DNA of 64,000 nucleotides from IMG/VR virus record IMGVR_UViG_3300023284_001318, positions 1 through 64,000 of that record; one strand, given 5' to 3'. The position numbers were made by a program, and so were the translations under genes. Position 1 is the first letter of the stretch; every line of letters begins with the position of its first letter. Below the pieces are notes generated by a model. The model was not told the DNA's origin. It made no database searches and worked only from the letters and a program-made list of their open reading frames with translations. The DNA comes from a virus. Shown in pieces: positions 54,494-54,630 of this stretch.

Positions 54494-54630
54494 AGCTTGG
54501 GGAAGCTGAATCTCATGGTCAAACTGAACAAACGGACGTGTAGGTTCGAATCCTACCCCCGGCTTATATATGCCGGGGTGGCGGAATTGGCAGACGCTTT
54601 AAGTCCGATCAAATTTAGATTATTCCCAAG
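54494..54630 (+). tRNA. Circularly permuted tRNA-like gene X (Leu-like D-arm)
   Basis: The 3' half comes first: T-arm GTAGG-TTCGAAT-CCTAC (54540-54556) and acceptor CCCCGGC (54557-54563). Then an 8-nt AT linker, then the 5' half: acceptor GCCGGGG (54572-54578), TG, and a tRNA-Leu-like D-arm GCGGAATTGGCAGACGC (54581-54597). The acceptor strands pair perfectly. Flanking segments pair in nested order: CGGAC/GTCCG, TGGT/ATCA, AATCT/AGATT, CTTGGG/CCCAAG. The anticodon arm is not resolved: five bases (TTTAA) separate the D-arm from GTCCG. CCA is not encoded. No normal-order 5' half lies upstream. Confidence 0.8.

Follow-up and report, generated by a model that had tools for sequence, protein, structure and literature searches.

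What does a virus encode when it carries the parts of a transfer RNA (tRNA) in the wrong order, with outer ends that pair with each other where an anticodon arm should be? The question is raised by X, an RNA encoded in a 64,000-nucleotide viral sequence (positions 1 to 64,000 of IMG/VR record IMGVR_UViG_3300023284_001318, here called the window), which accounts for the greater part of a 65-kb viral record. In X the parts of a tRNA follow one another in swapped order: a T-arm, the acceptor 3' strand, a spacer, the acceptor 5' strand and a D-arm, enclosed by a leader that pairs with the trailer. An earlier note on this DNA had described X, from its letters, as a possible tRNA mimic with four nested helices in place of the anticodon arm, and every element named there is found at its place in the window (Table 1). 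X itself stood up to our analysis, but its end at position 54630 did not: X is half of a unit whose order is a gene for a protein of the DUF7873 family, X (54494-54630), a second permuted tRNA-like head, Y (about 54638-54799), and an intrinsic terminator. Neither the twin nor the protein gene had been considered as a member of this unit. We think it probable that X and Y are two heads of one RNA, co-transcribed and acting with DUF7873, a statement that covers both the architecture and a ribonucleoprotein (RNP).

Computational support for this architecture comes from covariation in aligned homologues, the check that had been named in advance: the tRNA-like core and the leader:trailer stalk both covary, the outermost helix included. 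Among 48 X sequences, 13 of the 15 pairs in the T-arm, acceptor stem and D-arm have changed on both sides. The 44 Y sequences share 28 consensus pairs with 92% of cells paired, and 26 of these pairs have changed on both sides, including 7/7 pairs of the acceptor and 8/8 model pairs of helix B; the covariation of Y was 0.867, compared with 0.230 when shuffled and 0.12-0.20 with partners slid. Leaders also complement their own trailers better than mismatched ones, with z -23 for Y (anticodon (AC) stem -14, helix B -23, distal zone -4.7) and z -14 for X (AC -10.5, distal -10), values that relatedness can inflate, although the sets had been thinned on the basis of shared k-mers and the rewriting of the pairs is plain to see. 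In the closest relative, locus L001, the gene-X-Y order is identical to that of the window, and the two differ by compensatory changes in the X acceptor (CCCCGGC/GCCGGGG versus CTCGGGC/GCCCGAG) and in Y helix B (TCCGTTG/CAACGGA versus TCCGCTG/CAGCGGA) and by differences in the Y outer helix that keep its pairing. The RNA from 54494 to 54630 folds with -47.2 kcal/mol, compared with -35.5 +/- 3.8 for 200 dinucleotide shuffles (z -3.1), none of which was as good; the covariation is by far the stronger evidence of the two.

The four nested helices fared unequally. The outermost, CTTGGG/CCCAAG, is backed by homologues and is real but longer than first described, with CTTGGGGA pairing with TTCCCAAG. 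The homologous helix, which adjoins a repeat zone, covaries in other phages and bacteria (z 6.3, n 55), where it takes forms such as GGGAGA/TCTCCC, TGGAGCA/TGCTCCA, CACAGC/GCTGTG and CTTGGA/TCCAAG. The innermost, GTCCG/CGGAC, has no covariation of its own because it is identical in L001; the stem homologous to it co-evolves across the family, as the z of -10.5 for the AC zone of X indicates. The two helices in between, AATCT/AGATT and TGGT/ATCA, found no support among homologues and are doubtful, because one pair of TGGT/ATCA is lost in L001 and AATCT competes with a longer pairing of GCTGAATCTC (54505-54514) with GAGACTCAGC (54630-54639), in which 9 of 10 pairs form.

X RNAs come in two flavours that differ in their D-arm, TAGCCCAA in flavour I and the Leu-like TGGCGGAA in flavour II, and the flavours differ in what occupies the place of the anticodon arm. 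No hairpin follows the D-stem in 66 of 69 flavour I RNAs, whose anticodon stem is formed directly by trailer and leader. In Leu-flavoured X it is the class-II variable arm that the trailer:leader helix extends, and some hairpin stands at the anticodon-arm position in 33 of 46 by a loose criterion, with loops of 5-12 nt and no conserved anticodon. One relative, L336, retains an anticodon-arm-like hairpin followed by a GTCCG/CGGAC identical to that of the window. By homology, which is not proof, GTCCG/CGGAC would thus be the counterpart of the variable arm of class-II (Leu-like) tRNAs, and both the window and L001 would have had their anticodon arm reduced to TTTAA, leaving the variable arm to carry the stalk. 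Relatives with a 7-nt anticodon loop, which the earlier note had named as evidence against its proposal, exist but are few (5 of 46 Leu-flavoured X; the loop of L338, UUCAAAC, would read Leu-CAA), and the window has no such arm. ARAGORN found no tRNA in the window. With this blank, the covariation and the hairpin-free flavour I, the idea of a tRNA mimic whose long leader:trailer helix replaces the anticodon arm is sustained, with the refinement that its innermost segment is likely a variable arm. An annotation artefact that stems from the permuted RNA is seen in Klebsiella phage Centimanus (L251, 4013-4096), where an annotated tRNA-Stop(tta) consists of the leader and T-arm of a permuted Y RNA.

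The acceptor ends of 116 non-redundant modules provide clues to processing. NCCA follows the acceptor 3' strand in 43, compared with about 2 expected by chance, and a T stands just before the acceptor 5' strand in 65; the spacers between the strands range from 4 to about 118 nt and often start with NCCA. These counts would fit 3'-CCA ends and cleavage by RNase P. Encoded NCCA, a full set of T-arm, acceptor and D-arm in exchanged order, and the few Leu-flavoured X with a 7-nt loop could also belong to true permuted tRNA genes, whose transcripts are cut and circularised at the leader/trailer junction and then cleaved in the acceptor to yield decoding tRNAs, as in Cyanidioschyzon (PMC3978253). 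Such genes share with X and Y a 3' half that precedes the 5' half and leader:trailer pairing, but they are spliced through bulge-helix-bulge motifs, whereas the stalks of X and Y are tens of nucleotides long, conserved and, as judged by eye, not splice-like, with covarying helices and motifs that splicing would discard. By eye, from helices and loops, no conserved anticodon was seen and no bulge-helix-bulge was recognised at the leader/trailer junction (no dedicated search was made), and a review lists permuted tRNA genes only from algae and one archaeon (PMC3978253). We give this explanation very little credence. X and Y are most likely a non-decoding tRNA-mimic RNP. RNAs that have no decoding loop would be unfit to act as ordinary tRNAs.

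The link to DUF7873 is a matter of genomic position and co-occurrence, both established computationally. The window protein matches DUF7873 (PF25283) with 309.5 bits (E 2.4e-92), above the Pfam cut-off of 27 bits. Relatives occur in 73 phage records, from phages of Arthrobacter, Gordonia, Rhodococcus, Rhizobium, Vibrio, Klebsiella, Serratia, Pseudanabaena and Microcoleus; viral contigs yielded 343 and genomes of bacterial species at least 542, the latter spanning Streptomyces, Myxococcota, Planctomycetota, Acidobacteria, Chloroflexi and further groups. Among cultured Streptomyces, S. lavendulae (L376) carries the cassette. The X-Y region searched directly as DNA in phage records gave no match, and in first pattern scans most permuted-looking matches were ordinary tandem tRNAs. 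A strict search for a T-arm, acceptor strand, spacer, complementary acceptor strand and D-arm within 900 nt downstream of the DUF7873 gene recovered permuted modules at 71 of 80 viral and 76 of 80 bacterial loci; upstream there were 0 of 80 and 2 of 80, respectively, one of the two being an overlap artefact. Most exceptions have longer spacers and were recovered with a looser spacer setting. In the Streptomyces group, 41 of 81 genomes carry DUF7873, and full-length matches to the Y covariance model (62.9-136.9 bits) are present in exactly these 41, at a short distance downstream of the gene, and in 0 of 40 non-carriers; because the model was trained partly on Streptomyces-group sequences, the absolute scores are inflated there, which leaves the division into carriers and non-carriers untouched. 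The best of the remaining Y-model matches in this group are partial (58.7 bits or less), and those examined were tandem tRNA-Asn genes or separate Ro60-linked Y RNA pairs.

This patchy, single-copy distribution in Streptomyces, the wide spread across phages and bacteria, and the location of the cassette inside the tRNA clusters of Arthrobacter, Gordonia, Rhodococcus and Rhizobium phages raise the possibility of a decoy or toxin-antitoxin-like module, in which DUF7873 would be a tRNA-directed effector curbed by X and Y, or X and Y would absorb anticodon nucleases of host or phage. We regard such a module as unlikely: no toxin or defence genes recur beside the cassette, around which no recurrent neighbours were found beyond close (Streptomyces) relatives, no catalytic fold was recognised in the protein, and RNA and protein stay together across very distant phyla, unlike fast-turnover modules. 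The location in phage tRNA clusters also speaks for our own reading, an RNP built on tRNA mimics. In Rhodococcus phage NiceHouse (L245, 4374-5246) a gene for a Band-7-like membrane protein follows the cassette and one tRNA, an arrangement that does not recur elsewhere.

Bacterial Y RNA is a non-coding RNA whose 5' and 3' ends pair into a long stalk and whose head has T-arm, acceptor and D-arm in permuted order (PMC8394870). The YrlA family (RF02553), whose hallmarks include binding to Rsr and PNPase, shares the permuted tRNA-like head and paired outer ends with X and Y, and tandem pairs also occur in Streptomyces, but its linked partner is Rsr rather than DUF7873, and X and Y differ from it in having two unlike heads, X then Y, spacer-joined acceptor strands and conserved stalk motifs of their own. 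Could X and Y nonetheless be ordinary Ro60-dependent YrlA-type Y RNAs, with an Rsr encoded at another place in the phage or provided by the host? Beyond the common topology, YrlA does match Y of the window (33.2 bits, E 2.8e-5) and Y and X of L001 (32.9 and 19.9), and some cassette-bearing jumbo phages have a match to the TROVE domain of Ro60 over most of its length; two large viral records (G010 and G013, behind loci L276 and L318) carry such a match together with DUF7873, so two tRNA-mimic systems may coexist in one phage. All of these scores lie far under the cut-off of 69, however, and at Rfam cut-offs no family covered X or Y in the window or in 20 homologous loci. TROVE was found neither in the 65-kb window record nor in 9 of 15 DUF7873-bearing genomes or records, including those of L379 (13.7 Mb) and L348 (9.5 Mb). 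TROVE-bearing Streptomyces genomes keep separate Y RNA pairs beside TROVE, with or without DUF7873, and the tight linkage of X and Y is to DUF7873. We find the Ro60-dependent explanation quite improbable, and for these reasons (scores under the cut-off, Ro60 absent from the window record and many carriers, separate Y RNA pairs near Ro60) we place the DUF7873-linked RNA as a Ro60-independent variant, Y RNA-like in shape but not shown to be a Y RNA. The Ro60-linked Y RNAs at L416-L418 (Streptomyces-group genomes G048, G028), which lie in tandem some 1.1-1.3 kb away from a TROVE match, themselves score only 34-40 bits with YrlA (39.8 in one case), so Rfam misses them.

The earlier note had also likened X to the tRNA-like domain of transfer-messenger RNA (tmRNA). 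The likeness holds for shape and goes no further: a G3-U70 pair, a hallmark of tmRNA, is present in 1 of 116 modules and a conserved tag frame was not found, and the nearer analogue is bacterial Y RNA. Still, smpB and ssrA adjoin, and a ribosome rescue RNA of two pieces, tmRNA-like and with DUF7873 as its SmpB equivalent, would share with the permuted tmRNA-SmpB system an adjoining protein gene, an acceptor end made by spacer removal and a long helix that replaces the anticodon stem. Permuted tmRNA works as two pieces, with its halves ordered as here (PMC3978253). X is moreover flanked on both sides by hexamer repeats, ARNYTN, that resemble (K/R/N)(L/F) codons, as a tag might. These codon-like runs share no frame across homologues (distance between the two sides modulo 3, 13/24/20), no start or stop is conserved, with stops varying on inspection, the D-arms are normal with GG, there are two heads rather than one, and no tmRNA family of Rfam matched at its cut-off. 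We give a ribosome rescue RNA little credence. The ARNYTN repeats may reflect protein binding, a short frame that escaped recognition or another cause; in-phase leader:trailer pairing was rejected for want of covariation. In many homologues a boxA-like YGCTCYAR closes the trailer run. An open reading frame of 111 amino acids (54497-54832, + strand) spans X and Y and is retained in L001 within a frame of 139 amino acids; we rejected it as a real gene, judging it probably spurious because the codon-like runs beside X share no frame across homologues. A permuted-exon group I intron was dropped, there being no Rfam match.

How would X and Y act with DUF7873? We envision each head as an inside-out tRNA whose outer ends pair as a long stalk at the place of the anticodon arm. 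Through an elbow and acceptor that resemble those of tRNA, each head would admit tRNA-handling enzymes. RNase P would probably cut at the acceptor 5' strand, while the acceptor 3' strand would be trimmed at its 3' end or given CCA, to leave free CCA ends. The stalks, with their conserved internal motifs, are most likely where DUF7873 would bind. Like the particle of Ro60 and Y RNA, the assembly would mimic tRNA as a scaffold or decoy through which a dedicated protein reaches tRNA-binding machinery; any particular target is speculative. A bolder version, which we advance tentatively, is that DUF7873 and its double-headed RNA form an undescribed RNP independent of Ro60 and tmRNA, made of helix-held pieces that present two free tRNA-like acceptor ends at once, and that it acts on the translation apparatus of bacteria and their phages. 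A DUF7873-X-Y RNA-protein machine appears not to have been described so far; in open-access papers, the sole literature searched, we found nothing relevant on DUF7873 or on circularly permuted tRNA in phages.

Several observations count against the proposed RNP. A part of the X RNAs retain an anticodon-arm-like hairpin, and most modules, both window copies included, have no NCCA. At five loci (L298/L299, L347, L377 and L397, two of them identical in sequence) DUF7873 has no recognisable RNA downstream, and there the protein may have another role. Finally, although the predicted structure of DUF7873 is well defined (predicted local distance difference test 93.8, predicted template modelling score 0.70), with long helices and a beta hairpin, fold searches in the Protein Data Bank (PDB) and viral libraries returned nothing significant or informative. 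The best match, 3kdq_A from Corynebacterium diphtheriae, a protein of unknown function (Z 9.0, 147 residues aligned), is weak, its root-mean-square deviation of 7.3 being too large for a firm claim; TROVE, SmpB and ligase folds were absent from the matches, which excludes none of them. With no informative fold match, it is the linkage that leads us to infer RNA binding by DUF7873. In one phage locus (L279, 2501-3223) a single in-frame stop interrupts the DUF7873 gene, which may mean that this phage recodes stops or that the gene is broken.

Table 1. Features of the DUF7873-X-Y unit and its surroundings, in window positions.
Feature	Position	Strand	Evidence or remark
Sigma-70-like promoter candidate, 5' of DUF7873 gene	53689-53717	+	consensus scan only; no evidence of function
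DUF7873 gene, 244 amino acids, PF25283; proposed protein partner of X/Y	53757-54491	+	Pfam E 2.4e-92
X outer helix, 5' strand CTTGGGGA	54496-54503	+	partner 54623-54630; covariation of the homologous helix (z 6.3, n 55)
X CTTGGG/CCCAAG helix	54496-54501/54625-54630	+	pairing
X leader hexamer repeats (ARNYTN)n: AAGCTG AATCTC ATGGTC AAACTG	54503-54526	+	A/T at period-6 columns conserved in at least 90% of 48 sequences
X AATCT/AGATT helix	54509-54513/54617-54621	+	pairing; doubtful
X TGGT/ATCA helix	54516-54519/54608-54611	+	pairing; doubtful
X 13-nt bulge, leader side	54520-54532	+	
X variable-arm-like stem, 3' strand CGGAC	54533-54537	+	pairs with 54603-54607; family stem co-evolves
X GT linker, CGGAC to T-arm	54538-54539	+	
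X T-arm GTAGG TTCGAAT CCTAC	54540-54556	+	covaries in 48 homologues
X acceptor stem, 3' strand CCCCGGC	54557-54563	+	7/7 pairs changed on both sides in some homologue
X acceptor-strand spacer TTATATAT, presumed excised	54564-54571	+	family counts of NCCA and of T at -1
X acceptor stem, 5' strand GCCGGGG	54572-54578	+	covariation in homologues
X D-arm, class-II/Leu-like TGGCGGAATTGGCAGACGC	54579-54597	+	
X TTTAA, D-arm to GTCCG	54598-54602	+	
X variable-arm-like stem, 5' strand GTCCG	54603-54607	+	pairs with 54533-54537
X trailer hexamer repeats AAATTT AGATTA	54611-54622	+	homologue alignment
X outer helix, 3' strand TTCCCAAG	54623-54630	+	pairs with 54496-54503
Y RNA, second permuted tRNA-like head, extent under covariance model R1	54638-54794	+	110.1 bits (sequence in training set)
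Y outer helix, 5' strands GTTGCG GTTGTCG	54643-54655	+	pair with 54794-54799 and 54781-54787
Y conserved internal-loop motif AATCGA, facing TTAAATG 54770-54776	54656-54661	+	homologue alignment
Y helix B, 5' strand TTCCGTTG	54663-54670	+	pairs with 54763-54769
Y anticodon-stem position, 3' strand GCGGT	54680-54684	+	pairs with ACTGC 54745-54749; AC-stem zone z -14
Y T-arm	54689-54705	+	one T-T mismatch in window copy
Y acceptor strands TCGGGCC (54706-54712) and GGCCCGA (54720-54726), spacer TCTATAT	54706-54726	+	
Y D-arm TAGCTTAGAGGTAGAGC	54727-54743	+	covariance-model alignment
Y trailer: AC strand 54745-54749, ATTAGA-type loop, helix B 54763-54769, TTAAATG 54770-54776	54745-54799	+	
Y trailer distal strands: CGACAAC 54781-54787, CGCAAC 54794-54799	within 54745-54799	+	
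Intrinsic terminator closing the DUF7873-X-Y unit	54827-54866	+	12-bp stem and T tract

A single odd sequence has thus become a testable RNA-protein family, in which DUF7873, with its hundreds of homologues, gains a linked, co-occurring and covarying RNA. The cassette of DUF7873 and two tRNA look-alike RNAs recurs in many unrelated phages and bacteria, many of the loci being of metagenomic origin, and suggests that tRNA-mimic RNAs are apparently not limited to Ro60 particles and tmRNA but are common to phages and bacteria. Its recognition would clear spurious tRNA and open reading frame annotations at cassette loci. The biochemistry that it predicts, RNase P cleavage, CCA ends and DUF7873 binding, would be expected in cultured hosts, Streptomyces for one, and in phages of Arthrobacter and Gordonia.
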